Shown here one piece after another: positions 5,967 to 21,412 of a DNA stretch of 60,955 nt (positions within the stretch are counted from its first letter, which is position 1; the number at the start of each line of letters is the position of its first letter). Source of the DNA: Lachnospiraceae bacterium (lineage in GTDB: Bacteria > Bacillota > Clostridia > Lachnospirales > Lachnospiraceae); assembly GCA_017938145.1 (NCBI GenBank), contig JAGBCB010000026.1, forward strand, positions 1 through 60,955, in the 5' to 3' direction. The position numbers and the translations under genes were made by a program. Under the pieces are notes generated by a model. It worked only from the letters and a program-made list of their open reading frames with translations. It was not told the DNA's origin and made no database searches.

Positions 5967-6692
5967 ATGGCAATCAGACAGAAAGTCTTAGTGGCAGATA
6001 GTGACAGGGAATTTTGTGACTTTCTTTCCGATTTGCTGTCGGAGTGCGGCTATGAAGTCCTGCATGCTGCTACCGGAGAAGAAGCCACCCACATGGCATC
6101 GTCCCATTGCCCGGAACTCATGCTTATGGAACGTATTCTTCCTGATATAGAAGGAATAAAGGTGATTCAATCCGTACGGGAATGGTCGCTGTTACCAATT
6201 CTTGTTTTGTCGGAGCCGTCCGAGGAGCAGGTGGTGGCAGAACTGCTGGATAGCGGGGCCGATGATTATATTGTAAAACCGGTACGACCGTTGGAATTGC
6301 TGGCAAGAATACGGGCGGCTATCCGTCATACCCGTACAGTCAGCGGTGATTTGCAGTTCGCCAACACAGGAAAGATTGTAATCGGTCATTTGACGGTGGA
6401 TTTTGAAAAATATCGTGTTTATGTAGATGAAACAGATGTGGGTCTTACCCAGAATGAATTCCGCATGGTAGGCCTGCTTGCCCGGTATAACGGCAAGGTG
6501 CTGACTTACGAAAGAGTTATGCAGGAATTATGGGGACCGAATGCCGGAGATGACAATCAGATTTTACGGGTAAACATGACCAATATAAGAAAGAAAATAG
6601 AAGATGATGCATTACAGCCAAAATACCTGTTTACAGAGGCTGGTGTGGGTTACCGGATGGTAAGCCGGGAGGAAGCTGCACAATGGAAATAG
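5967..6692 (+). CDS. Atypical OmpR/PhoB-family response regulator
   Basis: 241 residues: a receiver domain (about 5-120) and a winged-helix Trans_reg_C domain (about 140-235; FRMVGLLARYNGKVLTYERVMQ). The usual phospho-acceptor Asp before the LPD motif is Glu55 (LMLMERILPD), and the acidic pocket is weakened (ADSD, with Ser12 where the second acid normally sits). The switch Ser (LVLS) and the Lys (YIVKP) are kept. Glu at this site often mimics phosphorylation, so the protein may be always active or read another signal. No sensor kinase lies nearby. Start follows AAGGAGGTT. Confidence 0.9.
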   Translation: MAIRQKVLVADSDREFCDFLSDLLSECGYEVLHAATGEEATHMASSHCPELMLMERILPDIEGIKVIQSVREWSLLPILVLSEPSEEQVVAELLDSGADDYIVKPVRPLELLARIRAAIRHTRTVSGDLQFANTGKIVIGHLTVDFEKYRVYVDETDVGLTQNEFRMVGLLARYNGKVLTYERVMQELWGPNAGDDNQILRVNMTNIRKKIEDDALQPKYLFTEAGVGYRMVSREEAAQWK

Positions 6693-6725
6693 TCGTTTTG
6701 AGGTTTTTTTTGTATGTTTTGCTAC

Positions 6726-6754
6726 TTGATAAAATGAGGGAAATATGCTATATT
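6726..6754 (+). promoter_or_regulatory. Promoter of the dehydrogenase-hdr-frd operon
   Basis: TTGATA (6726-6731), a 17-bp spacer and TATATT (6749-6754) with an upstream TG (6746-6747) form a strong extended -10 promoter. The predicted leader is about 75 nt. No other convincing promoter or terminator was seen before 17790, so this is the likely driver of the whole run of genes. Confidence 0.75.
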
Positions 6755-6789
6755 ACCGTTGTAATGAGAATTTTCCTCATTTTTTTTAT
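6731..6789 (+). terminator. Terminator of the response-regulator gene, overlapping the next promoter
   Basis: AAAATGAGG (6731-6739) pairs with CCTCATTTT (6775-6783), followed by more T. The left arm lies upstream of the predicted start of the 6726-6754 promoter, so only transcripts coming from the regulator gene can form it. The loop (about 35 nt) is long, so efficiency is uncertain. Confidence 0.5.
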
Positions 6790-6837
6790 GTTAATTATTG
6801 TTAAAAAATAAACAAAGTTAAGAAAGGAAACAGTGAA

Positions 6838-7785
6838 ATGAGCAGAAAAATCACTATTATCGGCGCAGGAAGCGTTGGTGCAACAATTGCGTACACCTTA
6901 TCTCAGGATGATATCGCATCTGAAATCGTAATGATTGACGTAAATAGAGATAAGGCAGAAGGAGAAGTAATGGATATTATCCAGGGTACCTGCTTCAGAG
7001 AGCCAATCGCTATTACTTCCGGCGATTATGAAGACGCAAAGGATTCTGACATCGTAATCATTACTTCCGGCGTGGCACGTAAGCCTGGTCAGTCCAGACT
7101 GGAATTAGCCCAGACCAATGTAGATATTTTAAAGGATATTACACCGCAGATTGCTGCAGCAGCTCCAAATGCAAAATATATTATTGTAAGTAATCCGGTA
7201 GACGTTTTAACTTATGTATTCACAAAGATTTCCGGTATTCCTGAGAACCAGATTATCGGTTCCGGTACTGTGCTTGATACTGCAAGACTCCGTTGCGGTA
7301 TTGCAGAGCACTTCAATGTAGCCCAGAAGAACGTACATGCTTATGTATTCGGTGAGCACGGCGATACCTCCTTTATCCCATGGAGTAAGGCATGCATCTC
7401 CGCGGTTCCGATGGAAGAGTATGTAAAGACTATGAAGAACAGTGGTGTTCGTGTAACACCTGTAGATAAGGATGCAATGTTAGAATATGTACAGAAGTCC
7501 GGCGGCAAGATTATTGCAAACAAGGGTGCTACCTTCTATGCGGTGTCTGCAGCGGTTTGTAAGCTTTGCAGCATTTTGCTTGCTTCCAGTGACTCTTATA
7601 CAACCGTTTCTACTATGATGCATGGTGAATACGGCATTGAAGACGTATGCTTAAGTACTCTTGCTCTGGTTGGTCCTAACGGATGTCAGGGTAAGGTAGA
7701 AGTAAACTTAACAGATGAAGAAGAAGTATTACTTAAGAAGAGTGCAGACACCTTAAAGGCAATCATTGCCCAGATTGAAATCTAA
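6838..7785 (+). CDS. LDH/MDH-superfamily dehydrogenase, probably malate dehydrogenase (L-lactate dehydrogenase-like)
   Basis: 315 residues, NAD-dependent. The Rossmann motif GAGSVGA and Asp34 favour NAD over NADP. Catalytic residues are in place: Arg87 (QSRLEL), Arg150 (DTARLR), His174 (GEHGD). The substrate-specificity residue, Gln in typical lactate dehydrogenases, is Arg81 (GVARKPGQSR), as in LDH-like malate dehydrogenases. Automated annotation would probably say L-lactate dehydrogenase. Arg81 and the downstream fumarase and fumarate reductase argue for oxaloacetate to malate. No terminator separates it from hdrB (25-nt gap with AAAAGGAGAA). Substrate is inferred, not shown. Confidence 0.85.
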   Translation: MSRKITIIGAGSVGATIAYTLSQDDIASEIVMIDVNRDKAEGEVMDIIQGTCFREPIAITSGDYEDAKDSDIVIITSGVARKPGQSRLELAQTNVDILKDITPQIAAAAPNAKYIIVSNPVDVLTYVFTKISGIPENQIIGSGTVLDTARLRCGIAEHFNVAQKNVHAYVFGEHGDTSFIPWSKACISAVPMEEYVKTMKNSGVRVTPVDKDAMLEYVQKSGGKIIANKGATFYAVSAAVCKLCSILLASSDSYTTVSTMMHGEYGIEDVCLSTLALVGPNGCQGKVEVNLTDEEEVLLKKSADTLKAIIAQIEI

Positions 7786-7810
7786 TAGATAAAAGGAGAA
7801 TGGTTTCGAT

Positions 7811-8599
7811 ATGAAGTACACTTATTATCCGGGATGTACCTTAAGAACAAAGGCAAAAGACCTGGATGCTTATGCAAGAGCATCGGCAAAGGCCCTTGGT
7901 TTTGAACTGGAAGAGGTAGAAAACTGGCAGTGCTGCGGCGGAGTATATCCGCTTGGTACCGATGAAATTGCTTCCAAGCTTTCTTCTGTCCGTGCATTAA
8001 ACGAGGCAAAGGAAAAGGGTCAGGATTTAGTAACTCTGTGTTCTGCGTGCCATCATGTAATTAAGCGCGTCAACAACGACATGAAGAATAACGATGACAT
8101 CCGCACCAGAGCAAACAATTACATGCAGCTGGAAACACCATATGCAGGTGAAACCAATGTGCTGCACTTTTTAGAAGTATTACGTGATAAGGTTGGTTTT
8201 GATACCTTAAAGGAAAAGGTAGTAAATCCTCTTACCGGCAAGAAGATTGGCGCTTATTACGGCTGCCTGCTTCTTCGCCCGGGCAAGGTATTAGGTTTTG
8301 ACAATCCGGAAAACCCTACTATTATAGAAGATTTCATCCGTGCTATCGGAGCTACTCCGGTGGTTTACCCATACCGCAACGAATGCTGCGGCGGATATAT
8401 TTCTCTCAGAGAAAAAGAGATGGCAAAGAATATGTGTGATAAGATTAAGGAAAGTGCATCCGGTTTCGGCGCAGAAATGTTAATTACTGCCTGCCCACTG
8501 TGCATGTACAACTTAAACAAGAGTGAAGCTGAGCTTCCTGTTTACTATTTCACCGAATTACTTGCCGAAGCACTTGGAGTAAAGGAGGAGGCTAAATAA
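7811..8599 (+). CDS. hdrB: Heterodisulfide reductase subunit B-like protein (two CCG domains)
   Basis: 262 residues with two complete cysteine-rich CCG modules: Cys9, Cys41-Cys42, Cys77, Cys80 and Cys152, Cys192-Cys193, Cys228, Cys231. In methanogen HdrB these bind two noncubane [4Fe-4S] clusters that reduce a disulfide. Bacterial homologs act in Hdr-Flx complexes with other acceptors. The stop overlaps the hdrC start by one base. The intact ligands mean it is probably a working redox subunit. With FrdB downstream it could supply in trans the CCG domain that methanogen thiol:fumarate reductase carries fused to its iron-sulfur subunit (inference). Confidence 0.9.
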   Translation: MKYTYYPGCTLRTKAKDLDAYARASAKALGFELEEVENWQCCGGVYPLGTDEIASKLSSVRALNEAKEKGQDLVTLCSACHHVIKRVNNDMKNNDDIRTRANNYMQLETPYAGETNVLHFLEVLRDKVGFDTLKEKVVNPLTGKKIGAYYGCLLLRPGKVLGFDNPENPTIIEDFIRAIGATPVVYPYRNECCGGYISLREKEMAKNMCDKIKESASGFGAEMLITACPLCMYNLNKSEAELPVYYFTELLAEALGVKEEAK

Positions 8600-8988
8600 T
8601 GAGCAGCGCAAAGAATCAGGCTGAAAGAATTAAAGAAATCAGCGGCGTAAATCCGTTAAAGTGCATGAAGTGCGGAAAATGCTCTGCTACCTGTCCTGCC
8701 TTCAACGAAATGGATATTAAGCCGCATCAGTTTGTATCCTATGTTTTAAACGGTGACATTGATGCACTGGCAAATTCCAAGTCCCTTTGGAAGTGTCTTT
8801 CCTGCTTCGCTTGTGTAGAGCGTTGTCCAAGAGATGTACAGCCGGGCAGACTCATTGATGCAGCAAGACAGCTGGTAATCCGCCAGAAGGGTCAGACCGG
8901 TCTTGCTCCTGAAGAAATTCCGGAGTTACTGGACGAGGACCTTCCACAGCAGTTACTTATGAGTGCATTCAGAAGATACAGGAGGTAA
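8599..8988 (+). CDS. hdrC: Heterodisulfide reductase subunit C-like ferredoxin
   Basis: 129 residues with two [4Fe-4S] motifs, CMKCGKCSATCP and CLSCFACVERCP, in the HdrC arrangement (FeS domain, helical linker, second FeS motif followed by VQPGRLIDAARQLV). HdrC carries electrons between HdrA and HdrB. It overlaps hdrB by one base and ends 6 nt before hdrA, so the three subunits are translationally linked. It is shorter than many archaeal HdrC proteins but has both clusters. Confidence 0.9.
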   Translation: MSSAKNQAERIKEISGVNPLKCMKCGKCSATCPAFNEMDIKPHQFVSYVLNGDIDALANSKSLWKCLSCFACVERCPRDVQPGRLIDAARQLVIRQKGQTGLAPEEIPELLDEDLPQQLLMSAFRRYRR

Positions 8989-8994
8989 GCCGTA

Positions 8995-10983
8995 ATGCAG
9001 AGAATAGGCGTTTTTGTCTGCCACTGTGGTAGTAATATTGCGGCTACGGTAGACGTTAAAAAAGTAGTAGAAATGGTTGCCATGGAACCGGGTGTAGTAC
9101 ATGCTGAAGATTATCAGTATATGTGTTCCGAAGCAGGCCAGGCCAAGATTGCAGAAGCAGTCAAAGAAAAGAATTTAACAGGTATCGTTGTATGTTCCTG
9201 TTCCCCGCGTATGCATGAGAATACCTTCCGTACCGCTGCAAAGCGTGCAGGTATCAACCCATACATGGTAGAAATTGCAAATATCCGTGAGCACTGCTCC
9301 TGGATTCACAAGAATGTAGAAGAAGCAACCGAGAAGGCTGTAATTCTTGCCAGAGCAGCTATTGCAAAGGTTAATTTAAATGCTCCTCTGTTCCCTGGCG
9401 AAAGCCGCGTAACAAAGAGAGCACTGGTTATCGGCGGCGGTATCGCAGGTATCCAGACAGCTCTTGATATCGCAGATGCAGGTTATGAAGTAGATATCGT
9501 GGAAAAGACCCCAAGTATCGGCGGCAGAATGTCCCAGTTAGATAAGACATTCCCTACTCTCGACTGTTCCGCATGTATCCTCACTCCTAAGATGGTAGAG
9601 GCTGCGGCTCATGAAAAAATCACTATTTATACATATAGTGAAGTGGAAAAGGTTTCCGGCTTCGTTGGTGACTTTACCGTGGATATCAGAAAGAAAGCAA
9701 GAAGCGTTGACGCTAACAAGTGTACCGGTTGCGGCGTTTGTCAGGAAAAGTGTCCTTCCAAGAAGGCTCCAAGCGAATTCAACCGCGGCTTAAATACAAG
9801 AAGTGCTATTTACACTCCGTTTGCACAGGCTATTCCAAACGTTCCGGTTATCGACAGAGATGCCTGCATCAAGTTTAAGACCGGCAAGTGTGGTGTCTGC
9901 GAAAAGGTTTGTCAGGCAGGCGCTATCGATTACACACAGCAGGATGAAATCGTAACCCAGAAGTACGGTGCCATCGTTGTGGCTACCGGTTTTGATACCA
10001 TCAAGTTAGATAATTACGATGAATACGCATACAACCAGAGCAAGGATGTTATCACTTCCTTAGAGTTAGAGCGTATCATGAACGCAGCAGGTCCTACCAA
10101 GGGTCACTTAGAGCGTTTGTCCGACGGTAAGCATCCTCACGAAATCGTATTTGTACAGTGCGTGGGCAGCCGTTGCTCCGACAACAGAGGTAAGAGCTAC
10201 TGCTCCAAGATTTGTTGTATGTACACTGCAAAGCATGCTATGTTAATCCGTGATAAGTATCCGGATGTTAACGTAACCGTATTCTACATCGACGTTCGTA
10301 CTCCTGGTAAGAACTTCGACGAGTTCTACAGAAGAGCGGTAGAAGAATATGGTGTAAACTATGTGAAGGGTCAGGTTGGTAAGGTTATCCCGCAGCCAAA
10401 CGGCAAGCTCTTAGTTCAAGGCTCCGACTTACTTGACAACAAGCAGATTTTTAAAGAAGCAGACATGGTAGTTTTAGCAACCGCTATCGAACCGGAAGCA
10501 TCCGTAAGACAGATTGCAACCATGCTTACTGCAAGTATTGATACCAACAACTTCCTGACAGAGGCACATCCAAAGCTTCGTCCGGTAGAATCCCCAACGG
10601 CCGGCGTATTCTTATCCGGTGTCTGCCAGGGACCAAAGGATATTCCTGAAACCGTTGCCCAGGCCGGCGCTGCAGCAGTTAAGGCCATCGGCTTACTGGC
10701 AAAGGATAAGTTAACCACAAACCCATGTACCGCAAAGGCTGACGAGCTTATGTGTAACGGCTGTTCCACTTGTGCTAACGTATGTCCTTACGGCGCAATT
10801 TCTTACGAAGAGAAGGAAGTTAACGATCACGGTATCCGTGAAACCCGCCGCATAGCAGTAGTTAATAATGCACTGTGTCAGGGTTGTGGTGCTTGTACCG
10901 TAACCTGTCCGTCCGGCGCTATGGATTTACAGGGCTTCTCTAACAGACAGATTATAGCGGAGGTAGATGCAATATGTCGATAA
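8995..10983 (+). CDS. hdrA: Heterodisulfide reductase subunit A-like flavoprotein (candidate electron-bifurcating subunit)
   Basis: 662 residues. An N-terminal HdrA domain with Cys motifs (VCHCGSN, CSCSPRMHE) precedes a thioredoxin-reductase-like FAD domain (GGGIAG at 147-152; LDCSACILTPKM) with inserted FeS motifs (CTGCGVCQEKCP and a CIKFKTGKCGVCEKVC segment), and two C-terminal [4Fe-4S] motifs (CNGCSTCANVCP, CQGCGACTVTCP). In characterised Hdr complexes the HdrA flavin splits electron pairs between ferredoxin and a high-potential acceptor. That role is expected here from homology and context. It overlaps the next gene by 10 nt. Strong codon bias suggests high expression. Confidence 0.92.
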   Translation: MQRIGVFVCHCGSNIAATVDVKKVVEMVAMEPGVVHAEDYQYMCSEAGQAKIAEAVKEKNLTGIVVCSCSPRMHENTFRTAAKRAGINPYMVEIANIREHCSWIHKNVEEATEKAVILARAAIAKVNLNAPLFPGESRVTKRALVIGGGIAGIQTALDIADAGYEVDIVEKTPSIGGRMSQLDKTFPTLDCSACILTPKMVEAAAHEKITIYTYSEVEKVSGFVGDFTVDIRKKARSVDANKCTGCGVCQEKCPSKKAPSEFNRGLNTRSAIYTPFAQAIPNVPVIDRDACIKFKTGKCGVCEKVCQAGAIDYTQQDEIVTQKYGAIVVATGFDTIKLDNYDEYAYNQSKDVITSLELERIMNAAGPTKGHLERLSDGKHPHEIVFVQCVGSRCSDNRGKSYCSKICCMYTAKHAMLIRDKYPDVNVTVFYIDVRTPGKNFDEFYRRAVEEYGVNYVKGQVGKVIPQPNGKLLVQGSDLLDNKQIFKEADMVVLATAIEPEASVRQIATMLTASIDTNNFLTEAHPKLRPVESPTAGVFLSGVCQGPKDIPETVAQAGAAAVKAIGLLAKDKLTTNPCTAKADELMCNGCSTCANVCPYGAISYEEKEVNDHGIRETRRIAVVNNALCQGCGACTVTCPSGAMDLQGFSNRQIIAEVDAICR

Positions 10984-11414
10984 ACAATGAAGAATTCAGA
11001 CCGAAAATTGTAGCGTTCTGCTGTAACTGGTGTAGTTATGCGGGCGCTGACCTTGCCGGCAGCAGCCGTCTGGCTTACCCTGCTGACGTAAAGATTATCC
11101 GCGTACCTTGTTCCTGTCGTGTTAACCCGATGTTCATCTTAAGAGCATTTGAAAAGGGCGCAGACGGTGTTATCATCTGTGGTTGCCATCCGGGTGACTG
11201 TCACTACAGCACAGGTAACTATTATGCGAGAAGACGTATGACTCTTCTGTTCTCCATGCTTGACTACATGGGCGTGGAAAACGGCCGTACCCGCGTAGAA
11301 TGGGTATCTGCAGCAGAAGGTGTTAAGTTCTCTCAGACCATGAACGAGTTCGTAGAAAAGATTCACTCTCTTGGTGAGAATGTAAGATTGGGGGATTTAA
11401 GATGCAAGAATTAA
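10974..11414 (+). CDS. mvhD: MvhD/FlxD-like [2Fe-2S] electron-transfer subunit
   Basis: 146 residues of the MvhD family: conserved cysteines in FCCNWCSYAGAD, VPCSCRVN and ICGCHPGDCHY, which hold a [2Fe-2S] cluster. MvhD links a hydrogenase to HdrA in methanogens; in bacterial Flx-Hdr systems the equivalent FlxD links the NADH-oxidising FlxA side to HdrA. No hydrogenase large subunit is present here, and an NADH-type flavoprotein lies three genes downstream, so the Flx role fits better. It overlaps hdrA and the next gene, which shows tight co-translation. Confidence 0.9.
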   Translation: MSINNEEFRPKIVAFCCNWCSYAGADLAGSSRLAYPADVKIIRVPCSCRVNPMFILRAFEKGADGVIICGCHPGDCHYSTGNYYARRRMTLLFSMLDYMGVENGRTRVEWVSAAEGVKFSQTMNEFVEKIHSLGENVRLGDLRCKN

Positions 11415-12373
11415 TCAATCGTGCAAAAGAGCTTCTGGCAAACGGTACCGTAGCACGCGTACTTGGCTGGAAAGCCGGCGATCTTCCATATAATCCGGAA
11501 CCGGCTTTCTTCACCACAGCAGAAGAACTTGATAATTTCGTATATAACGGTTTTTGTGGCGCAAACCTTAGCAAGTACATGATTGCGGCTTCCAAATTAG
11601 AGGGCAAGACCATGGTTTGCTTAAAGCCATGTGATACTTACAGCTTCAACCAGCTCATTAAGGAGCACCGTGTAGATCGGGAAAAGGCATACATTGTTGG
11701 TGTGGGCTGTAAGGGTAAGTTAAGTATTGAAAAAGTTAAGGATTTAGGTATTAAGGGTATTACCGCTGTATCCGGTGCAGAAATGTCTGACGACGCAGAA
11801 ACTCTTACCTTCCAGACTATTTACGGAGACAAGTCCTGCGCTTACGCTGATGCAATGCTGGAACGTTGTCATGTATGTAAGGGTAAGGAGCATATGGTAT
11901 ATGACGAGCTGATCGGCGAGTCCAAGGATACCAAGGATGCAGAACGTTTTGCTGAGGTTGAGAAGATTGAAGCAATGAGTCCTGCAGAAAAGTTCGCTTT
12001 CTTCCAGAAGGAGCTTTCTAAGTGTATCCGTTGTAATGCCTGCCGTAACGTATGTCCGGCTTGTAGCTGCCGTAAATGTGTGTTCGACAGCACCAAGTTC
12101 GACAGTGCACAGAAGGCAAATGTGGATTCCTTCGAAGAAAAGATGTTCCACATTATCCGTGCGTTCCACGTAGCAGGACGTTGTACCGACTGCGGCGAAT
12201 GCAGCAGAGTATGTCCACAGGGCATTCCGCTTCACTTATTTAACCGTAAGTTCATTAAGGACATTGACGAGTTATACGGTGAGTACCAGGCAGGTGCTGA
12301 CACCGATTCCAAGGCACCATTAACAAACTTCACCTTTGACGATGCAGAACCAAGCATCGTAACAAAGCGCTAG
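11402..12373 (+). CDS. FlxB/FlxC-like iron-sulfur subunit (4Fe-4S dicluster protein)
   Basis: 323 residues. The N-terminal ~200 residues resemble the catalytic-like fold of F420 hydrogenase beta / coenzyme-F420-type proteins (MVCLKPCDTYSFNQLI; GVGCKGKLS), followed by a CHVCKG motif and a C-terminal ferredoxin domain with CIRCNACRNVCPACSC and CTDCGECSRVCP. It sits between the MvhD-like and AsrA-like genes, overlapping the former by 13 nt. In the Flx-Hdr family it would pass electrons from FlxA to FlxD. Which Flx letter applies cannot be settled without alignment. Confidence 0.8.
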   Translation: MQELINRAKELLANGTVARVLGWKAGDLPYNPEPAFFTTAEELDNFVYNGFCGANLSKYMIAASKLEGKTMVCLKPCDTYSFNQLIKEHRVDREKAYIVGVGCKGKLSIEKVKDLGIKGITAVSGAEMSDDAETLTFQTIYGDKSCAYADAMLERCHVCKGKEHMVYDELIGESKDTKDAERFAEVEKIEAMSPAEKFAFFQKELSKCIRCNACRNVCPACSCRKCVFDSTKFDSAQKANVDSFEEKMFHIIRAFHVAGRCTDCGECSRVCPQGIPLHLFNRKFIKDIDELYGEYQAGADTDSKAPLTNFTFDDAEPSIVTKR

Positions 12374-12387
12374 AAAGGGGATAATGT

Positions 12388-13419
12388 ATGTATAAGATCG
12401 CAAAAGAAAATCTGACCGCATTATTCCGGTTAATGGCGGAAGATAAAGCATTATATTTACCGGTAAACAACGCAGGTCAGGTAAATTTCGCAGCATGGAC
12501 CGAAGATGCAGAAGTAGATTTAGATACGTTAAAGAGCGTGAAATCTCCAAAGGATGCTTTCTTCCCACAGAGCGAAAATTTATATACCTGTTATAAAGAT
12601 GGTAAGAAGATTAAAATTGAGCCGGAAGAATTACAGCATCAGAACTTTGTTGTATTCGGCATGAAGGCCTGTGATGTAAAGGGTGTTGAAGTTTTGGATA
12701 AGGTATTCTTATCCGAGCCTGTAGATACCTTCTACGCTGCAAGACGTGCCCACGGCACCATCGTTGCCATGGCTTGTCACGAGCCGGAAGAAACCTGCTT
12801 CTGTAAGGTATTCGGCATCGACTGCGCAGAGCCGGTGGCAGACGTTGCTACCTGGATGGTAGAAGGCGAACTGTATTGGAAGGCTCTCACCGAAAAGGGC
12901 GAGGCATTAACAAAGGCAGTTGCTTCCCTGCTTACTGAAACCGACGAAGCAAAGGTAGAGGATGAAAAGACCGCTATCCGCGCTATCGTAGAAAAGCTCC
13001 CATACATGAACCTTTCCTTAGAAGGTTGGAATGGTGATGCTTTAACCGAAAAGTTTGACTCCCCAATCTGGGAAGAATTATATAAGCCATGTCTGGCATG
13101 CGGTACCTGTACTTTTGTGTGCCCAACCTGCCAGTGCTACGACATTAAGGACTACGACACAGGACACGGCGTACAGCGTTACCGCTGCTGGGATTCCTGC
13201 ATGTACTCCGATTTCACCATGATGGCCCACGGTAACAACCGTACCAGCCAGATGCAGAGATTCCGTCAGCGTTTCATGCACAAGTTAGTATACTTCCCTG
13301 CAAACAACGACGGCATGTACTCCTGCGTAGGCTGTGGCCGCTGTGTAGAAAAATGTCCGGCATCCTTAAATATTGTTAAGGTAATCAAAGCTTTTGAAAA
13401 TCAGGGAGGTGACCGGTAA
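12388..13419 (+). CDS. AsrA/FlxC-like iron-sulfur subunit
   Basis: 343 residues with the layout of anaerobic sulfite reductase subunit A: an N-terminal domain with FGMKACDVKGVEVLDK and CHEPEETCFCKVFG, then C-terminal [4Fe-4S] motifs CLACGTCTFVCPTCQCYD and CVGCGRCVEKCPASLN. No sulfite reductase catalytic subunit (AsrC) is present, so this belongs to an electron-transfer module instead. It overlaps the following AsrB-like gene by one base. AsrA/AsrB-type pairs form the NADH-accepting arm of Flx complexes. Confidence 0.82.
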   Translation: MYKIAKENLTALFRLMAEDKALYLPVNNAGQVNFAAWTEDAEVDLDTLKSVKSPKDAFFPQSENLYTCYKDGKKIKIEPEELQHQNFVVFGMKACDVKGVEVLDKVFLSEPVDTFYAARRAHGTIVAMACHEPEETCFCKVFGIDCAEPVADVATWMVEGELYWKALTEKGEALTKAVASLLTETDEAKVEDEKTAIRAIVEKLPYMNLSLEGWNGDALTEKFDSPIWEELYKPCLACGTCTFVCPTCQCYDIKDYDTGHGVQRYRCWDSCMYSDFTMMAHGNNRTSQMQRFRQRFMHKLVYFPANNDGMYSCVGCGRCVEKCPASLNIVKVIKAFENQGGDR

Positions 13420-14279
13420 TGTGCGATTGTACTTGTCATGAAAACTACACACTGGATACCTTAATTCCAATGGTTGGTGTGATTACAGACATCCGTCAGG
13501 AAACTCCTGACGTAAAGACTTTCCGTGTGAATGCTCCGGAAGGCGGAAAATTATTCGAGCATATGCCTGGCCAGTGCGCCATGATTTGTGCACCGGGTGT
13601 CAGTGAGGGTATGTTCTCCATTACCTCTTCTCCTACAAACAAGGAGTATCAGGAATTCAGTATTAAAAAGTGTGGTATGTTAACCGATTATCTCCACAGC
13701 TTAGAGGTGGGTGACCAGATTACCGTGCGCGGACCGTACGGCAACAACTTCCCGGTAGAAACCGAGTTAAAGGGTAAGGATTTATTATTCATTGCCGGTG
13801 GTATCGGTTTAGCACCGCTTCGTTCCGTTATCAATTATGTTCTTGATAACCGTGACAACTACGGCAAGGTAGATATCCTTTACGGTTCCCGTTCCGCAGA
13901 CGACTTAGTTCAGTTAAAGGAAATCCAGGAAGTATGGATGAATACCCCTGGAGTTAACGTATACTTAACCATCGACCGTCCACAGGAAGGCTGGACCGGT
14001 AACGTAGGTTTTGTTCCTTCTTACTTAAAGGAACTTAACTTTGCAGCAGAAGCAAACAAGGTTGCCCTGGTTTGCGGACCGCCTATCATGATTAAGTTCG
14101 TTTTAGCTGGTCTTAAGGAAATGGGCTTTAAGGATGAGCAGGTTTACACCACCTTAGAGCTTCGTATGAAGTGCGGCGTTGGTAAGTGCGGACGTTGTAA
14201 CATAGGTTCCAAGTACGTTTGTAAGGATGGCCCGGTATTCCGTTTCGACGAAATCGATGAGCTTCCGAATGAGTACTAG
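13419..14279 (+). CDS. FlxA/AsrB-like FAD/NAD(P)-binding oxidoreductase
   Basis: 286 residues of the ferredoxin-NADP reductase superfamily, the PyrK/AsrB/hydrogenase-gamma group. An FAD-binding barrel (MFSITSSP; GPYGNNFP) is followed by a nucleotide domain (FIAGGIGLAPLRS; LVCGPPIMIKF) and a C-terminal [2Fe-2S] motif (CGVGKCGRCNIG and a later Cys). It is the likely entry point for NADH electrons into the complex. Start follows GGAGGTGACC and overlaps the previous stop. Confidence 0.88.
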   Translation: MCDCTCHENYTLDTLIPMVGVITDIRQETPDVKTFRVNAPEGGKLFEHMPGQCAMICAPGVSEGMFSITSSPTNKEYQEFSIKKCGMLTDYLHSLEVGDQITVRGPYGNNFPVETELKGKDLLFIAGGIGLAPLRSVINYVLDNRDNYGKVDILYGSRSADDLVQLKEIQEVWMNTPGVNVYLTIDRPQEGWTGNVGFVPSYLKELNFAAEANKVALVCGPPIMIKFVLAGLKEMGFKDEQVYTTLELRMKCGVGKCGRCNIGSKYVCKDGPVFRFDEIDELPNEY

Positions 14280-14298
14280 TTGATAAGGAGAATTTGAA

Positions 14299-14973
14299 AT
14301 GGCAGATATGATTAATATTTACTTATACGGTAAGAAGTATGAAGTACCGGCAAGCTTAACCATCATGGAAGCTTTTGAATATGCCGGCTATCAGTTAGTA
14401 CGCGGATGCGGCTGCAGAAACGGTTTCTGCGGTGCCTGCGCTACTATCTACAGAATCAAGGGTAAGAACGAATTAGTAGGTTGTCTTGCCTGCTCCACAA
14501 AGGTTGAAAACGACATGTGCGTAGCAACCTTACCATTCTTCCCATTGGAGAAGAAGGTTTATGACATCACAGAGATTAAGCCTACCGCACAGGTTATGAT
14601 GCAGTTATATCCTGAAATTTATGCCTGCGTTGGCTGTAACGCTTGTACCAAGGCTTGTACTCAGGACTTAAACGTTATGCAGTATATCGCATACGCTCAG
14701 AGAGGCGAATTCGAGAAGTGTGCGGAAGAGTCCTTCGACTGCGTAATGTGTGGCGTATGTTCCTCCCGTTGTCCGGCAGGTATTTCCCATCCACAGGTTG
14801 CTCTTCTTGCAAGAAGACTTACCGGTAAGTACATCCGTCCGGAAGCAGAGCACTTAACCAAGAGAGTAGAAGAAATCGAAAACGGCGACTGCCGTGCAAT
14901 GATTGAAGCTATCATGGCTAAGCCTCTGGAAGAAATCAAGGAAATGTACAACACCAGAGAAATTGAGAAGTAG
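14299..14973 (+). CDS. frdB: Soluble fumarate reductase / succinate dehydrogenase iron-sulfur subunit
   Basis: 224 residues. An N-terminal [2Fe-2S] domain (CGCRNGFCGACAT) is followed by an alpha-helical domain with two FeS motifs (CVGCNACTKACT; CVMCGVCSSRCP). The layout is FrdB/SdhB/TfrB-like but stops before the CCG domain that methanogen TfrB carries. No cytochrome b or other membrane anchor gene is present, so the enzyme is expected to be cytosolic. It lies between the FlxA-like gene and frdA with short gaps and good ribosome binding sites. Confidence 0.87.
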   Translation: MADMINIYLYGKKYEVPASLTIMEAFEYAGYQLVRGCGCRNGFCGACATIYRIKGKNELVGCLACSTKVENDMCVATLPFFPLEKKVYDITEIKPTAQVMMQLYPEIYACVGCNACTKACTQDLNVMQYIAYAQRGEFEKCAEESFDCVMCGVCSSRCPAGISHPQVALLARRLTGKYIRPEAEHLTKRVEEIENGDCRAMIEAIMAKPLEEIKEMYNTREIEK

Positions 14974-14986
14974 GAGGATATCAAAG

Positions 14987-16609
14987 ATGAGTTTAACATA
15001 TACCGCAGAGATGATGGAATCCGTTAAAAAGGTAGAGGCAGGCAGAGCAGCACGTATCGGTTTTGAGCCAAAGCGTATGACTGCAGACGAAAAGACCGCT
15101 TTACTTGAAAAGTTCCATCCGGACTACAATCTCGACAGTTTTGAAGAAATTAAGGTTGGTCCTAATAAGGGTCAGAAGGCTCCGAAGGAATTAGTAGAAA
15201 CCCTTCAGGGCGAAAGCAGAATCAAGGGCATGAACCTTGATTTAACAAAGGTTGATTACGACGTAGACGTTCTCGTTATCGGTGGCGGCGGTGCAGGTTC
15301 TTCCGCAGCAATCGAAGCTAACGAAGCAGGCGCAAACGTAATGATTGTTACTAAGCTCCGTATCGGTGATGCAAACACCATGATGGCAGAAGGTGGTATC
15401 CAGGCAGCAGATAAGGAAAACGATTCCCCTGCACAGCACTACCTTGACGTTATGGGTGGCGGTCACTACGCAAACGTTCCTGAGCTTGTTGAAAAGCTGG
15501 TTTGCGACGGTCCTCTTGCTATCAACTGGTTAGATAAGCTTGGCGTTTTATTCGATAAGGATGAAAACGGCAACATGATTACCACCCACGGCGGCGGTAC
15601 TTCCCGTAAGAGAATGCACGCTTGTGCAGACTACTCCGGCGCCGAAATCATGAGAGTTTTAAGAGACGAAGTTATCAACAGAGGTATTCCTGTTGTTGAC
15701 TATACAGCAGCTATCGAAATCATTAAGGATACCGATGGTAAGGCGGCAGGTGCTGTTCTTATGAACATGGAAACCGGCGAAATCCTCATTGCAAGAGCAA
15801 AGACTGTTATCATCGCAACAGGTGGTGCAGGCCGTATGCATTATCAGGGCTTCCCAACCTCCAATCACTACGGTGCAACCGCTGACGGTTTAGTGCTTGC
15901 TTACCGTGCAGGTGCAGCTTTACTTTATCAGGATACTCTTCAGTATCACCCAACCGGCGTTGCTTTCCCTGCTCAGATTTACGGTGCACTGGTAACTGAG
16001 AAGGTTCGTTCCATGGGCGCTATGTTCGTAAACCGCGAAGGTGAAGTGTTCATGCATCCGCTGGAAACCAGAGACGTTGCAGCTTCCGGCATCATTCGTG
16101 AATGTAAGGAAAGAGGCAAGGGTGTTCAGACTCCTCAGGCAGAGGGTATCTGGTTAGATACACCAATGATTGATATGATTCACGGCGAAGGTACACTGGA
16201 AAAGAGACTTCCTGGTATGCTTCGTATGTACTTAAGATGCGGCATCGATATGAGAAAGGTGCCAATCGTAATTTACCCAACTCTGCACTACCAGAACGGC
16301 GGTATCAAGATTTCCGCTAACGGTATGTCTGATATTGAAAACCTCTATGTTGCCGGCGAGGCAGTAGGCGGAATCCACGGAAGAAACAGACTCATGGGTA
16401 ACTCCTTACTTGATATCATTGTATTTGGCCGTAATGCAGGTAAAGAAGCAGGCGCTAAGTGCAAGAACGTTGAGCTTAAGGACTTAACACTTTCCCATGT
16501 GGACGATTACTCCAAGATGCTCGCTGATGCAGGTATTGAGCCAAAGGTAGTTTCTCCGAAGTTATTACCTGACTACAGACCGGAAGGCGTAACAAGACTC
16601 GACAAGTAA
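14987..16609 (+). CDS. frdA: Soluble fumarate reductase flavoprotein subunit
   Basis: 540 residues from ATG 14987, chosen because TAGGAGGATATC sits just upstream; an in-frame ATG at 14903 lies inside frdB. FAD motif GGGGAGSSAA, the substrate-loop HPTG (YHPTGVAFP), TEKVR in place of the usual TEGxR, ETRDVAA, and the C-terminal FAD loop GGIHGRNRLMGNSLLD are visible. It reduces fumarate to succinate or the reverse. There is no Tat or Sec signal. The wider enzyme group also contains aspartate oxidase and thiol:fumarate reductase; placement next to FrdB and fumarase makes fumarate the best substrate guess. Confidence 0.88.
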   Translation: MSLTYTAEMMESVKKVEAGRAARIGFEPKRMTADEKTALLEKFHPDYNLDSFEEIKVGPNKGQKAPKELVETLQGESRIKGMNLDLTKVDYDVDVLVIGGGGAGSSAAIEANEAGANVMIVTKLRIGDANTMMAEGGIQAADKENDSPAQHYLDVMGGGHYANVPELVEKLVCDGPLAINWLDKLGVLFDKDENGNMITTHGGGTSRKRMHACADYSGAEIMRVLRDEVINRGIPVVDYTAAIEIIKDTDGKAAGAVLMNMETGEILIARAKTVIIATGGAGRMHYQGFPTSNHYGATADGLVLAYRAGAALLYQDTLQYHPTGVAFPAQIYGALVTEKVRSMGAMFVNREGEVFMHPLETRDVAASGIIRECKERGKGVQTPQAEGIWLDTPMIDMIHGEGTLEKRLPGMLRMYLRCGIDMRKVPIVIYPTLHYQNGGIKISANGMSDIENLYVAGEAVGGIHGRNRLMGNSLLDIIVFGRNAGKEAGAKCKNVELKDLTLSHVDDYSKMLADAGIEPKVVSPKLLPDYRPEGVTRLDK

Positions 16610-16640
16610 TAACGGTTTGAAAGAAAAGAGGTAAATTGAA

Positions 16641-17792
16641 ATGGGAATTCTTACATGGTTTATGGAGAGTGTATGGGCCAATAACCTGATGTTAATTTTC
16701 ACCATCCTGGTTCTTGGCTATGCTTTGGGAAGAATTACAATCTGCGGTTTGGATTTAGGAACCGCAGGTGTACTCTTAGTAGCACTGGTATTCGGACACT
16801 TTGGGGTAGTGATTCCGGATGTTGTCGGTGACTTAGGCCTTATCTGTTTCGTAACCGCAGTAGGTTACATTGCAGGACCAAAGTTTTTCCGTAATATTAA
16901 AGCAAACGCAAAGTCTTACATACTGATTGGTCTGGTAACCATTTTATCCGGTGCATTGGTATGTGTGGCAGTTATTAAGCTGTTTAATGTTCCTACCGAT
17001 ATTTGTGTAGGCCTTATGTCCGGTGCCCTTACCAGTACCCCTGGTTTGGCCGCAGCTAAGGAAGCAGCCGGTGTTAACGCTGCCGTTGGTTACGGTATTG
17101 CGTATCCGTTCGGCGTAGTAGGCGTTGTGCTTTTTGTACAGTTAATTCCAAAGATTTTAAAGACCGATATGGATGCGGAGCGTGCGAAGTTTACAGCAGC
17201 AGCTACCGTTTCTGTAGAACAGAAGGAAGAAAAGAAGAGAATTGCCATTGACGAGTTTGGCTTCTTTGCTTTCGCTCTGGCTATTATTCTTGGTATCATT
17301 TTAGCAAAGATTAGTATTCCGCTTCCGGGCGGCGGTAAGTTTGCTCTTGGAACCTCCGGCGGTCCTTTGCTAGCAGGTCTGGTGCTTGGTCACTTTGGTC
17401 ATATCGGACCGGTAGACATTAAGCCAAACACTAATATGCTTAAGCACATCAGAGAGTTCGGTCTGGCACTGTTCTTATTAGGTGCAGGATTAGAAGGCGG
17501 CGCAGGCTTCGTGGAAGTATTAAAGGAACAGGGCGTGATGTTATTCGTATACGGTGCGCTGATGACTTTGGTTCCGATGTTTGCGGCATACTTCTTTGCG
17601 GCAAAGGTATTGAAGCTTTCCGTGTTCAATTCCCTTGGTTCCATTTGCGGCGGTATGACAAGTACTCCGGCATTAGGTACCTTAATCCGTGTAACAAAGA
17701 CCGACGACGTGGCAGCAGCTTATGCGGCAACCTATCCGTTTGCACTGATTTTAGTAGTGCTTTGCTGTCAGTTTATCGGCATCCTGTTTTAG
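16641..17792 (+). CDS. AspT/SucE-type (AAEx family) dicarboxylate transporter, likely succinate exporter
   Basis: 383 residues, about ten hydrophobic segments, built as two homologous halves: the signature TSTPG recurs at 131-134 and TSTPA at 340-343, each followed by an AYPF motif (GIAYPFGVVGVVL and ATYPFALILVVL). This is the aspartate-alanine exchanger fold (TC 2.A.81) without the central RCK_C domains of AspT. The family includes the succinate exporter SucE of Corynebacterium. Gene order after frdBA supports export of succinate or exchange of C4-dicarboxylates. Substrate is inferred. Confidence 0.8.
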   Translation: MGILTWFMESVWANNLMLIFTILVLGYALGRITICGLDLGTAGVLLVALVFGHFGVVIPDVVGDLGLICFVTAVGYIAGPKFFRNIKANAKSYILIGLVTILSGALVCVAVIKLFNVPTDICVGLMSGALTSTPGLAAAKEAAGVNAAVGYGIAYPFGVVGVVLFVQLIPKILKTDMDAERAKFTAAATVSVEQKEEKKRIAIDEFGFFAFALAIILGIILAKISIPLPGGGKFALGTSGGPLLAGLVLGHFGHIGPVDIKPNTNMLKHIREFGLALFLLGAGLEGGAGFVEVLKEQGVMLFVYGALMTLVPMFAAYFFAAKVLKLSVFNSLGSICGGMTSTPALGTLIRVTKTDDVAAAYAATYPFALILVVLCCQFIGILF

Positions 17793-17924
17793 TTCAGAGC
17801 CAAGTAGATTCGATAAAACTATGCTGGGAATGCTTGCATTTCCGGGCATAGTTTTTGTCGAATTTATTTGACGGATACCGTACATCGAGGAAACACGCAG
17901 TGTTTTCGAGATGTGCTCTGAACT
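17791..17924 (+). other. Structured intergenic element between the exporter and fumarase genes
   Basis: A 10-bp perfect outer stem (AGTTCAGAGC, 17791-17800, starting in the exporter stop codon, and GCTCTGAACT, 17915-17924) encloses two hairpins. The first is long (about 17808-17864, arms around AAACTATGC and GCATAGTTT followed by TTTTG); the second is at 17882-17914 (ACATC...AAACAC and GTGTTT...GATGT). The shape is a three-way junction. The first hairpin could act as a partial terminator or RNA-processing site that separates fumarase expression from the upstream genes. Confidence 0.6.
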
Positions 17925-17954
17925 AGTAGTATAAAATATTAGGAGGAAACAGCT

Positions 17955-18797
17955 ATGCGTGAGATTAACGTAAGTCAGATTACAGATGTGGTAGAAAAGC
18001 TTTGTATCGAAGCAAACCAGCATCTGCCTGAGGATGTAAAGTGTGCAATCAAGAATTGCAGAGCTTGTGAAGATTGGGACATCGCTCAGGGTGTATTAGA
18101 TAAGATTATTGAAAACTATGAAATCGCAGATTCCCAGTGTGTGCCGATTTGTCAGGACACCGGTATGGCATGTGTATTCCTTGAAATCGGTCAGGATGTT
18201 CACCTTGTTGGCGGCAACCTTTCCGAAGCGGTGGATGAAGGTGTTCGCCGTGGTTACGACAAGGGCTATCTTCGTAAGTCCGTTGTAGGTGATCCGGTTC
18301 GCCGTGGTAACACAGGTGACAACACACCGGCAATGCTTTACACAGAAATCGTTCCCGGCGACCAGGTAAAGATTACTGTAGGACCTAAGGGCTTCGGCAG
18401 CGAGAACATGAGTGCTATCCGCATGTTCAAGCCATCCGCAGGACTTCAGGGCATTAAAGATTTCATTATCGAGACTGTAGAAACAGCAGGTCCAAACCCA
18501 TGTCCTCCAATGGTAGTGGGCGTTGGTATCGGCGGTACCTTTGATAAGGCAGCTCTTCTTGCAAAGAAGGCTCTTATGAGACCAATCGATTCCTCTCATC
18601 CGGACCCATTCTACGCTGACCTTGAAGTAGAAATGTTAGAAAAGATTAACCAGCTTGGTATCGGACCTCAGGGCTTTGGCGGTAAGACCACAGCCATCGG
18701 TCTTAACATTGAAACTTTACCAACCCACATCGCAGGTATGCCATGTGCAATCAATATCAACTGCCATGTAACCCGCCACAAATCGGAGGTGATTTAA
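17955..18797 (+). CDS. Class I (Fe-S) fumarate hydratase, alpha subunit
   Basis: 280 residues, matching the N-terminal catalytic half of FumA/FumB-type fumarases that is a separate subunit in clostridia and archaea. [14 protein letters not shown] and [16 protein letters not shown] carry conserved residues; cysteines at CQDTG and NPCPP are in the places expected for [4Fe-4S] ligands. It interconverts malate and fumarate and is oxygen-sensitive. ATG follows TTAGGAGGAAACAGCT. Its stop lies one base from the beta subunit start. Tartrate dehydratase is a close relative, but the context fits fumarase. Confidence 0.9.
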
Positions 18798-18798
18798 G

Positions 18799-19356
18799 AT
18801 GGAAAAGCATATTACATTACCTTTAACAGAGGAACTTGCAAAGACATTAAAGGCCGGTGATTCCGTTTATGTTACCGGTACCATCTACACTTCCCGTGAC
18901 GCAGGTCACAAGCGTATGTGCGAAGCTCTGGCAAGAGGCGAAGAACTTCCTTTTGACCCAACCGACGCTACCATCTACTATGTAGGACCAACTCCTGCAA
19001 AGCCTGGTCAGGTTATCGGTTCCGCAGGCCCAACTACCAGCGGCCGTATGGACGCATACGCTCCAACCATGATGAGCGTTGGCGCAAGAGGCATGATTGG
19101 TAAGGGCGCACGTCTTCCGGAAGTTATCGACGCTATGAAGAAGTACTCCGGCGTGTACTTTGGTGCCATCGGTGGTGCAGGTGCATTACTTGCTAAGTGC
19201 ATCAAGAGTGCAGAACTCATCGCTTACGAAGATTTAGGTGCAGAAGCACTTCGTAAGCTGTATGTAGAGGATATGCCACTGGTTGTAATTATTGACAGCG
19301 AGGGTAATAACCTTTACGAAGAAGGTAAGGCAGCATATTTGGCATCTAAGAAATAA
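18799..19356 (+). CDS. Class I fumarate hydratase, beta subunit
   Basis: 185 residues, the swivelling C-terminal half of class I fumarases: VYVTGTIYTSRDAGHKRM, the GPTTSGRMD loop and YFGAIGGAGALLAKCIK are typical. It acts with the alpha subunit immediately upstream. The last codons (19322-19338) are part of a 17-bp perfect inverted repeat whose partner lies 270 bp downstream, so the C-terminal tail (EEGKAAYLASKK) may have been shaped by that element. Confidence 0.9.
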   Translation: MEKHITLPLTEELAKTLKAGDSVYVTGTIYTSRDAGHKRMCEALARGEELPFDPTDATIYYVGPTPAKPGQVIGSAGPTTSGRMDAYAPTMMSVGARGMIGKGARLPEVIDAMKKYSGVYFGAIGGAGALLAKCIKSAELIAYEDLGAEALRKLYVEDMPLVVIIDSEGNNLYEEGKAAYLASKK

Positions 19357-19622
19357 AGCAGCCTTGCAGGTATTTTGTTAGTTTAATATTTTAATAAATT
19401 TATGGCGGTATATTTATCCTCCCGAAACACGCTCGCACTCTCATCGAAACGTAGCGGTACTAGGCTCGTGCGACCTACAGTCGCATGACCTCGCCAAGGA
19501 CCGACGTTTCTCCAGGGTTTCGTCCGGATAAATATGCCGCCATAAATTTTATCTAAGTATTGAAAACACAATAACTGCTAGGCAGTTTGCTTCTAAAGAG
19601 CCAAGATATGCTGCCTTACCTT
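19322..19622 (+). repeat. MITE-like nested inverted-repeat element after fumarase
   Basis: This covers the 327-bp gene-free gap 19357-19683. An outer 17-bp perfect inverted repeat (AAGGTAAGGCAGCATAT, 19322-19338, and its complement, 19606-19622) begins inside the fumarase beta gene. Within it, 24-nt arms at 19396-19419 and 19526-19549 can pair fully in RNA (one G-U pair). Their 106-nt interior holds smaller stems (TGCGAC/GTCGCA near 19469-19486; GAAACGT/ACGTTTC). A further hairpin, AACTGC-TAG-GCAGTT, is at 19573-19587. No protein is encoded. It could be a MITE, a stability element or a structured RNA; I do not recognise a named family. Confidence 0.6.
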
Positions 19623-19651
19623 TTGCAATGGAGAAGAGAGTGTGGTATAGT
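19623..19651 (+). promoter_or_regulatory. Promoter of the rhomboid gene
   Basis: TTGCAA (19623-19628), a 17-bp spacer and TATAGT (19646-19651) with TG two bases before the -10. It begins directly after the right arm of the inverted-repeat element. Confidence 0.7.
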
Positions 19652-19683
19652 AAATATATCACAGGTTTGGAAGGGCGTTGGTT

Positions 19684-20686: not shown

Positions 20687-21275
20687 TTGGAGCAATTACA
20701 AAAGCAGTATCAGGAGCTTACGTTTACCGATGATTTTATGTTTGGCAAGGTTCTGGTGAATAATCCGGAAATATGCCGCAGATTGTTAGAAGTCTTACTG
20801 GAAATCAAAATCAAGAAAATTTCTTTTCCGGAACGGCAGAAAACCATAGAAATTCTCTCCGATGGAAAGGGTATCCGTCTGGATGTTTATGTGGATGACG
20901 AAAACGGCACAATATATAACATCGAGATGCAGACAAAGGTAAAAAAGGAACTTCCGAAGCGCAGTCGTTACTATCAGGGGATGATAGATATGAATTTGAT
21001 TGAACGGGGCGCAAATGATTGACAATGAAGTTGAAAAAGCAAGAAAACATGAAGAATGGAGGGTGGAGTATATGACATTGTATTTAAGAGATATGGATAT
21101 TCGTGATGAAGGTATAGAGATTGGAATAGAACAAGGATTAGAACAAGGGCTGTCTGCCTTAGTGAATTCTTTAAAAGACTACATTAAGGATGAAGAGGTT
21201 TTGTTTCAGGCTGTTATCAAAAACGAAGCCTACAAAGATACTCCACGGGAAGAAATTTTGAAATATTTGAATTAG
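20687..21275 (+). pseudogene. Rpn/PD-(D/E)XK nuclease-family transposase remnant with internal deletion
   Basis: The first part (20687-21022, TTG start after AGAGAGGTA) is the conserved N-terminus: FTDDFMFGKVLVNNPE, GIRLDVYVDDENGTIYNIEMQ with the nuclease acids, and RSRYYQGMIDMNLIERGA, where it stops. The second part (to 21275, another frame) is the family's usual C-terminus: EVEKARKHEEWRVEYMTLYLRD, a Glu/Gly-rich IGIEQGLEQGL stretch and a short helical tail. The middle, normally about 100 residues with YVIFI-type strands, is missing and the frame is shifted near 21015-21024. The nuclease core acids survive, but the protein is almost certainly dead. Confidence 0.8.
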
Positions 21276-21321: not shown

Positions 21322-21412
21322 CTATCCCAATTTAGGAAATGTTTTTACGTTTCTTTGATATATAATCAAACCGTAAAGTGATTCTGCAGAACTTACTTTG
21401 GAGGACGGAACG

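Follow-up and report, generated by a model that had tools for sequence, protein, structure and literature searches.

A nine-gene Hdr-Flx-fumarate reductase cluster conserved in Clostridia probably encodes an already proposed bifurcating NADH:fumarate reductase

Reduction of fumarate ordinarily depends on a membrane and a quinone, and the locus described here raises the question of whether some Clostridia carry it out in the cytosol and save energy in doing so. The locus lies in a 60,955-nucleotide contig of a Lachnospiraceae bacterium (assembly GCA_017938145.1, contig JAGBCB010000026.1; this whole stretch is hereafter the window) and joins genes for an HdrABC heterodisulfide reductase module and FlxABCD subunits to genes for a soluble fumarate reductase, FrdBA. 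Judging from the sequence, the nine products probably form one cytosolic, ferredoxin-reducing, bifurcating NADH:fumarate reductase, and the locus is most likely a further case of an enzyme that has been proposed before. This reading, first put forward in a first-pass annotation of the window, is supported by the strict gene order of Clostridia, by co-occurrence and correlated divergence, by conserved residues, by the lack of a quinone-pathway match over cut-off in 12 carrier genomes and by favourable energetics; what it loses is the novelty of composition claimed for it. The window genome (assembly 3.24 Mb, 78% complete) holds one FrdA match, and the closest named record among the matches listed, from which the window's own records may have been excluded, is a Lachnospiraceae metagenome-assembled genome (MAG) with a 96% identical FrdA.

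The nine genes occupy positions 7811-16609 of the plus strand in the order hdrB-hdrC-hdrA-flxD-flxC-flxB-flxA-frdB-frdA, and all of their open reading frames (ORFs) are open:

7811..8599, + strand: hdrB, 262 aa, two CCG non-cubane cluster motifs (PF02754, 3.9e-18)
8599..8988, + strand: hdrC, 129 aa, two [4Fe-4S] motifs (Fer4_8, 6.8e-12)
8995..10983, + strand: hdrA, 662 aa, proposed bifurcating flavin adenine dinucleotide (FAD) subunit with Fe-S domains
10974..11414, + strand: flxD/mvhD, 146 aa, predicted [2Fe-2S] link between Flx and HdrA (PF02662, FlpD/MvhD, 2.7e-55)
11402..12373, + strand: flxC, 323 aa, Fe-S subunit (Fer4 dicluster profiles)
12388..13419, + strand: flxB, 343 aa, AsrA/HydB-like Fe-S subunit (PF17179, 1.2e-30)
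13419..14279, + strand: flxA, 286 aa, AsrB-like FAD and NAD(P)H subunit with [2Fe-2S], predicted NADH entry
14299..14973, + strand: frdB, 224 aa, [2Fe-2S] and two [4Fe-4S] motifs, helical C-terminal tail
14987..16609, + strand: frdA, 540 aa, soluble fumarate reductase flavoprotein with a ~90-residue N-terminal extension and a short C-terminus

The spacing, in nucleotides with overlaps negative, is -1 for hdrB/hdrC, +6 for hdrC/hdrA, -10 for hdrA/flxD, -13 for flxD/flxC, +14 for flxC/flxB, -1 for flxB/flxA, +19 for flxA/frdB and +13 for frdB/frdA, in agreement with the packing and the overlaps of 1-13 nt noted in the first-pass annotation. The frdA start is placed at ATG 14987, preceded by AGGAGG, in place of a mechanical TTG call at 14903. 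Other elements of that annotation also held: the run contains no intergenic terminator, as the three plus-strand terminator-like sites within it are all intragenic; the Fe-S ligands are intact, the cysteine motifs being invariant in aligned HdrB, HdrA and FrdB; the subunit names agree with the profile matches; and no hydrogenase, sulfite reductase or membrane anchor was found among the 29 window ORFs run through profile libraries.

HdrA is homologous over its whole length to its counterpart in the bifurcating complexes of methanogens. Its residues 3-660 align with residues 5-649 of the solved HdrA 5odc_A (2.6e-205), its ferredoxin-type cysteines are invariant in 20 of 20 aligned sequences, and it scores 795 bits (6.8e-239) with the HdrA2 profile, under the cut-off of 1100. 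HdrB matches the PDB HdrB chain 8rvv_B (2.2e-35) and carries the two motifs C9-C41C42-C77xxC80 and C152-C192C193-C228xxC231, invariant in all 23 aligned sequences. The top NCBIfam profiles of HdrC are HdrC profiles, under cut-off, and its CX2CX2CX3C motifs lie at 22-32 and 66-76. FlxA matches NAD_binding_1 (7.2e-20), FAD_binding_6 and DHODB_Fe-S_bind; FlxB scores 191, 164 and 149 bits with the ShyB, HydB and AsrA profiles, all under cut-offs; and flxC keeps its position in those loci of the gene-order survey that are long enough to include it.

FrdB, predicted by AlphaFold2 with a confidence (pLDDT) of 87, has twelve cysteines (39, 44, 47, 65, 110, 113, 116, 120, 148, 151, 154 and 158) that are invariant in 35 of 35 sequences. 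Since its second ferredoxin motif holds four of them (148, 151, 154 and 158), a [4Fe-4S] rather than a [3Fe-4S] cluster is predicted there. Profile searches found no match to a CCG domain in FrdB, and a fold search returned weak matches, with template-modelling scores by query length of 0.22-0.37 among the 50 listed, of which the top one is the C chain of the methanogen Elp-Hdr complex. FrdA has the catalytic His/Glu/Arg set of fumarate reductases, and these residues are invariant in the alignment. Asn130 stands at the position of the covalent-FAD His in 36 of 36 sequences, and structural matches span model residues 71-529, barely covering the N-terminal extension. The best NCBIfam match of FrdA is TfrA (334.9 bits; cut-off 718), a subunit of the methanogen thiol:fumarate reductase; HdrC, FrdB and HdrB each align with a different part of methanogen TfrB, under its cut-off, FrdB with its positions 19-93 only.

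We infer complex formation, the electron path, bifurcation and direction from these features as follows. NADH would enter at FlxA and electrons would pass via FlxB and FlxC, then the FlxD [2Fe-2S] cluster, to the HdrA FAD, where the pair would be split. One electron would travel through HdrC, HdrB and FrdB to the FrdA FAD and reduce fumarate to succinate, and the other would be delivered to ferredoxin. Malate dehydrogenase, fumarase and a permease encoded alongside would supply fumarate and export the product, while reduced ferredoxin would be re-oxidized by Rnf, [FeFe] hydrogenases or both.

The first-pass annotation was aware of no described complex with exactly this composition. We reject that novelty: PMC7282089 describes the same set in a 'succinate operon' of Pseudoclostridium thermosuccinogenes, in which fumarate hydratase stands with seven genes of a bifurcating NADH dehydrogenase/heterodisulfide reductase (Flx-Hdr), two for fumarate reductase and one for a putative transporter of succinate. 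The same bifurcation proposal is made there, citing a 2019 preprint (10.20944/preprints201912.0288) with the same idea. That paper puts the rise of the operon under CO2 limitation at about 4-fold and recounts that succinate almost vanished under 85% H2; such H2 is expected to hinder ferredoxin re-oxidation, and we count the effect in favour of bifurcation. A further precedent, described in PMC6315080 and PMC11636981, is the reductive tricarboxylic acid gene cluster of sulfur-oxidizing tubeworm and vent symbionts, in which tfrAB is interspersed with flxABCD-hdrABC and direct electron hand-over from Hdr-Flx to TfrAB has been suggested. PMC10579422 was rejected as a precedent, the fumarate reductase there being membrane-bound.

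How widely is the cluster kept? FrdA is present in 14 of 98 relatives and in 38 of 398 phylum genomes, own excluded (members at least 50% identical, next matches at most 40%). It also occurs in 54 of 393 sampled class genomes, own included (members at least 60% identical, next matches at most 38%), which makes the nine-gene set no thermophile oddity. A scan of named genomes gave at least 583 stretches encoding a FrdA relative, of which the best 80 were kept. The first-pass annotation had suggested surveying gene order in related Clostridia, and the survey returned the window order, uninterrupted, at 102 of the 103 Clostridia-type loci that have 8.6 kb or more upstream. These loci were drawn from the relatives, class and named sets, whose genomes overlap; 12 of the 53 FrdA genomes of the class set (own excluded) were left out, one of them (G030) being fetched apart from that set. 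The 103rd locus (L026) has all nine genes with a 0.9-kb gap between hdrC and hdrA. Among 30 Clostridia-type loci with less than 8.6 kb upstream, seven hold all nine and the other 23, cut short by the contig end, show only the last genes of this order. Counted apart from the 103, L207 has all nine as frdBA-hdrBCA-flxDCBA. This conservation of gene order excludes a chance arrangement. The full set is found in two named gut strains, Blautia glucerasea MSK.21.93 (L058) and Mordavella massiliensis An420c (L075), making the published hypothesis testable in gut strains. Two loci, L047 and L093, are titled Planctomycetaceae and Bacteroidaceae, yet have FrdA 71-74% identical and the Clostridia gene order; they are possibly mis-named or mis-binned MAG contigs.

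HdrA and FrdA are linked both in presence and in divergence. With up to 12 first-look candidates scored per genome, HdrA (E <= 1e-60) was detected in 17 of the 98 relatives, namely in every one of the 14 FrdA carriers and in three of the 84 others (G001, G024 and G053; Fisher 2e-14, kinship ignored). The G001 contig ends inside HdrA and, on the other side, inside frdB, and is 93-100% identical to the window cluster, so that it represents a cut copy of it. Across 87 dereplicated loci, pairwise distances correlate at 0.85 for FrdA-HdrA, 0.81 for FrdA-FlxA and 0.78 for FrdA-FlxB, and within Hdr-Flx at 0.89 for HdrA-FlxA and 0.90 for HdrA-FlxC. Values are lower for FrdA-HdrB (0.72) and FrdB-HdrB (0.66), despite HdrB being the proposed neighbour of FrdB. 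Malate dehydrogenase and the permease do not co-diverge with FrdA (0.31, n=53, and 0.17, n=47, respectively), some of these copies possibly being paralogues.

The physiology of 12 hand-picked carrier genomes, own included, fits a quinone-free route. MenD over cut-off was found in 0 of 12, with under-cut-off matches in all 12 that we take to be other thiamine diphosphate enzymes, and the futalosine-pathway family PF02621 likewise in 0 of 12, with one match under cut-off (G406). Methylmalonyl-CoA mutase had no match in any of the 12, and DsrC none over cut-off, with one under it (G213). RnfC is over cut-off in 9 of 12 and [FeFe] hydrogenase in 12 of 12. With standard potentials of -320 mV for NADH, +30 mV for fumarate and -420 to -500 mV for ferredoxin, oxidation of two NADH to give succinate and reduced ferredoxin computes to -48 to -33 kJ/mol, and transfer from NADH to fumarate alone to about -67 kJ/mol. 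Two candidate explanations are weakened: syntrophic succinate oxidation via the methylmalonyl-CoA route by the lack of a mutase match, and a quinol:fumarate reductase by the FrdB cysteines together with the lack of MenD or PF02621 over cut-off.

Outside the class, the partners of frdBA vary. The 39 loci from the 38 phylum genomes carrying FrdA comprise 5 with the full nine, 11 partial, 4 with hdrCB only, 18 with no hdr or flx in the fetched stretch and one at a contig edge (L184). Separation of the genes in relatives, which the first-pass annotation had set against its own proposal, is absent within class Clostridia, but 34 of 39 loci outside it lack the full set nearby. The full sets read frdBA-hdrBCA-flxDCBA in L178, L179, L182 and L187, as in L207, and hdrCBA-flxDCBA-frdBA in L203, and these alternative orders fall on separate FrdA branches. 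A quick FrdA tree calls for five gains or losses of the nine-gene state, of which starred branches force four or more; its context labels were set by hand, L213, L216 and L222 being labelled full though their contigs end before hdrB.

The 11 partial loci (L180, L189-L195 and L197-L199; L195 and L198 cut by contig ends) read hdrA-flxD-flxC-like-frdBA with no flxAB seen; hdrCB is present where the contig extends far enough, and there is a second HdrA-like protein, mostly of 1050-1100 aa. A porA-like gene adjoins 9 of the 10 listed, and these loci are possibly a ferredoxin- or 2-oxoacid-linked variant. L175, L181, L185 and L186 hold hdrC-hdrB-frdB-frdA with no HdrA or Flx beside, with fumarase nearby in three and HdrA elsewhere in all four genomes; the arrangement looks like an unfused TfrAB. 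Because HdrCB adjoins FrdBA there without HdrA, HdrCB is likely the direct partner of FrdBA, and HdrA-Flx looks like an added front end, as far as gene order can tell.

The 18 loci without hdr or flx, three of which (L176, L188 and L200) have less than 5 kb upstream, come from 17 genomes, 13 with HdrA elsewhere, and have neighbours that include pyruvate carboxylase and malic enzyme. In L168, L169 and L170 (G745, G549 and G816, with no HdrA match at E <= 1e-60), frdBA directly follows a 1144-aa protein, a pyruvate carboxylase by Pfam in L168 with close relatives in the other two. In L177, the neighbours of frdBA are an FMN_bind/Fer4 protein and cytochrome c proteins, with a relative of the first in L196 and of the second in L204, and in L205 frdBA adjoins a formate-dehydrogenase-gamma-like protein (58.6 bits; cut-off 115.85) with a relative in L206; at these five loci electrons may be supplied by other carriers. 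No frdB match was seen beside frdA in L202. An obligate FrdBA-Hdr pairing across the phylum is rejected on account of the frdBA loci without hdr or flx and the genomes without an HdrA match. The other or missing Hdr partners outside the class point to FrdBA as a plug-in module. Going further, we consider it possible, if somewhat short of probable, both that FrdBA with its N-terminally extended FrdA is a plug-in acceptor wired in at least five ways in Bacillota, standing beside pyruvate carboxylase in genomes without an HdrA match, and that its bifurcating form is the standard quinone-free, energy-conserving succinate route of gut Clostridia. The five wirings of this joint claim would be HdrABC-Flx in its three orders; double HdrA/MvhD without FlxAB by 2-oxoacid:ferredoxin oxidoreductase-like genes; HdrCB alone; FMN (flavin mononucleotide)-binding and cytochrome c proteins; and a formate-dehydrogenase-gamma-like protein.

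Several observations weigh against a single bifurcating complex. G024 (L261) and G053 (L262) hold complete hdrCBA-flxDCBA clusters, 31-57% identical to those of the window, with frdBA absent from the 17 kb fetched and no FrdA genome-wide at E <= 1e-60; in the window's own family, Flx-Hdr can thus do without Frd. Conversely, frdBA stands without hdr or flx at the 18 loci outside the class, and 4 of their 17 genomes (G745, G549, G816 and G546) have no HdrA match at E <= 1e-60, showing that FrdBA can work with other donors. Synteny and correlated divergence are evidence of joint inheritance, not of contact; indeed fumA, whose product is presumed to lie outside the complex, correlates at 0.72-0.87 (n=27; 0.73 with FrdA). 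The window genome, 78% complete, gave no Rnf match over cut-off; its congener G003 has one. In PMC7282089, the operon rise did not reach significance for every subunit, Rnf fell about 2-fold, and a redox potential lowered by Na2S acted in the opposite way to H2. In the vent symbionts, as described in PMC6315080 and PMC11636981, tfrAB expression did not track the Hdr-Flx cluster, which is evidence against tight coupling in that system.

These points leave room for other readings, of which a soluble but non-bifurcating NADH:fumarate reductase, with Flx-Hdr as a mere wire to FrdBA and ferredoxin not reduced, appears unlikely to us. Its reaction is strongly downhill, and fewer parts suffice, as at the frdBA loci without hdr or flx; a plain wire, however, would not need HdrA, which retains its full length, its FAD and its Fe-S set and can be aligned with methanogen HdrA from one end to the other. 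It is also improbable that the operon merely co-transcribes two enzymes, Flx-Hdr acting alone as in Desulfovibrio and FrdAB drawing on another donor. The 2 of 98 relatives with Flx-Hdr and no Frd, the Flx-Hdr without Frd reportedly described by Ramos in 2015, the frdBA loci lacking nearby hdr or flx and the genomes without an HdrA match would all suit it, whereas the near confinement of HdrA to FrdA carriers (one of the three exceptions being the cut cluster) and the existence of three different nine-gene orders argue against it.

The remaining alternatives change the chemistry. Flx-Hdr could reduce a disulfide carrier and FrdAB act as a thiol:fumarate reductase like methanogen TfrAB, as the TfrA match of FrdA and the matches of HdrB, HdrC and FrdB to pieces of TfrB might suggest; we regard this as very unlikely, since FrdB has no match to the thiol-oxidizing CCG domain of TfrB and DsrC is over cut-off in 0 of 12 carriers, other thiol carriers lying outside the search. 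Thiol:fumarate reductase and DsrC-linked candidates were accordingly weakened by the TfrA/TfrB profile results and the DsrC count. Still less credible is a reaction running backwards, in which succinate is oxidized and its electrons are confurcated with those of ferredoxin to NADH. Formally the module can run either way, and por-like and CoA-transferase-like genes, all under cut-offs, lie beside frdBA in some other Bacillota (L172), but the reaction is uphill by 33-48 kJ/mol at standard potentials, methylmalonyl-CoA mutase has no match in the 12 carriers, and malate dehydrogenase and fumarase suit the reductive direction. That the acceptor is another enoate, FrdA being a urocanate- or acrylate-reductase-like flavoprotein, is the most far-fetched, given the invariant fumarate-reductase catalytic residues and the fumarase and malate dehydrogenase genes next door.

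The genes that flank the nine extend the same-strand run to 6838-19356:

6838..7785, + strand: mdh, malate dehydrogenase of the lactate-dehydrogenase-like type
16641..17792, + strand: AspT/YidE-type permease, candidate dicarboxylate exchanger (PF06826, 2.9e-75)
17955..18797, + strand: fumA, class I fumarate hydratase alpha (PRK06246, 421 bits; cut-off 276)
18799..19356, + strand: fumB, class I fumarate hydratase beta (PRK06842, 291 bits; cut-off 238)

mdh ends 25 nt before hdrB and the permease gene begins 31 nt after frdA. As same-strand companions among the 103 loci, mdh occurs in 73, the permease in 60, fumA in 38 and fumB in 35, counts partly limited by contig ends, and an mdh relative lies 1-2 kb ahead of hdrB in many. 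Mdh scores 343.5 and 331.3 bits with lactate dehydrogenase profiles (cut-offs 339 and 303.55) and 282.6 with the malate dehydrogenase profile PRK06223 (cut-off 283); its substrate loop holds an Arg (VARKPG), presumably the malate-specific residue. Automatic annotation may name this gene an L-lactate dehydrogenase, as those profiles are over cut-off. A promoter-like site lies upstream of mdh (6726-6754, a 10-of-12 match with an extended -10) and a terminator-like hairpin candidate downstream of the permease gene (17824-17845). Promoter-like sites number 26 against 21.2 +/- 4.7 in shuffles and terminator-like sites 19 against 12.3 +/- 3.8 (6500-20000, both strands), so that such sites prove little. 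Further downstream, 20687-21022 is a short PD-(D/E)XK transposase-family fragment (PF12784), and ORF 21398-22723 has AraC-type DNA-binding matches at ~14-111 and homoserine-kinase-like matches at 182-398, all under cut-offs; a regulator-kinase fusion is possible.

If the enzyme is bifurcating, energy would be saved while making succinate without quinones: quinone-free Clostridia would gain about one reduced ferredoxin per succinate, convertible into an ion gradient via Rnf or into H2, and estimates of ATP yield would change both for fermentation in gut and rumen and for the production of succinate. Judged against open-licence PMC papers, what is new here is the breadth, the strict synteny, the presence-absence link of HdrA with its exceptions, the carrier physiology and the modular partners of FrdBA.

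Each known system shares part of this design. Quinol:fumarate reductase (complex II, Escherichia coli FrdABCD) has the same FrdA fold and catalytic residues; the window enzyme differs in the Asn at the covalent-FAD His, the two four-cysteine motifs of FrdB and the lack of a menaquinone-pathway match over cut-off in the carriers, and no membrane anchor adjoins frdBA in the window, the genes adjoining it being those searched. TfrAB systems likewise combine a soluble fumarate reductase with CCG, Fe-S and [2Fe-2S] parts, with the difference that the CCG domain of TfrB here sits in a separate HdrB rather than in FrdB and that FrdA is N-terminally extended. With the FlxABCD-HdrABC NADH dehydrogenase/heterodisulfide reductase, which the 2015 work of Ramos is said to describe without Frd, the window has in common all seven subunits encoded together, by profile, an HdrB with two non-cubane CCG motifs and an HdrA with a full Fe-S set; it departs from it in the link to frdBA and in having no DsrC over cut-off in the carriers. 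The Moorella MetFV-HdrABC-MvhD system, as set out in PMC5861303, similarly has an HdrABC-MvhD module feeding a different soluble reductase, with methylene-tetrahydrofolate as the acceptor and a named set without FlxAB-type subunits. Compared with the published description of the P. thermosuccinogenes operon in PMC7282089, the window locus belongs to a gut-type Lachnospiraceae relative, has mdh in front and uses an AspT-type permease, and it shares with that operon the fumarase, the seven Flx-Hdr genes, the two Frd genes and a transporter.

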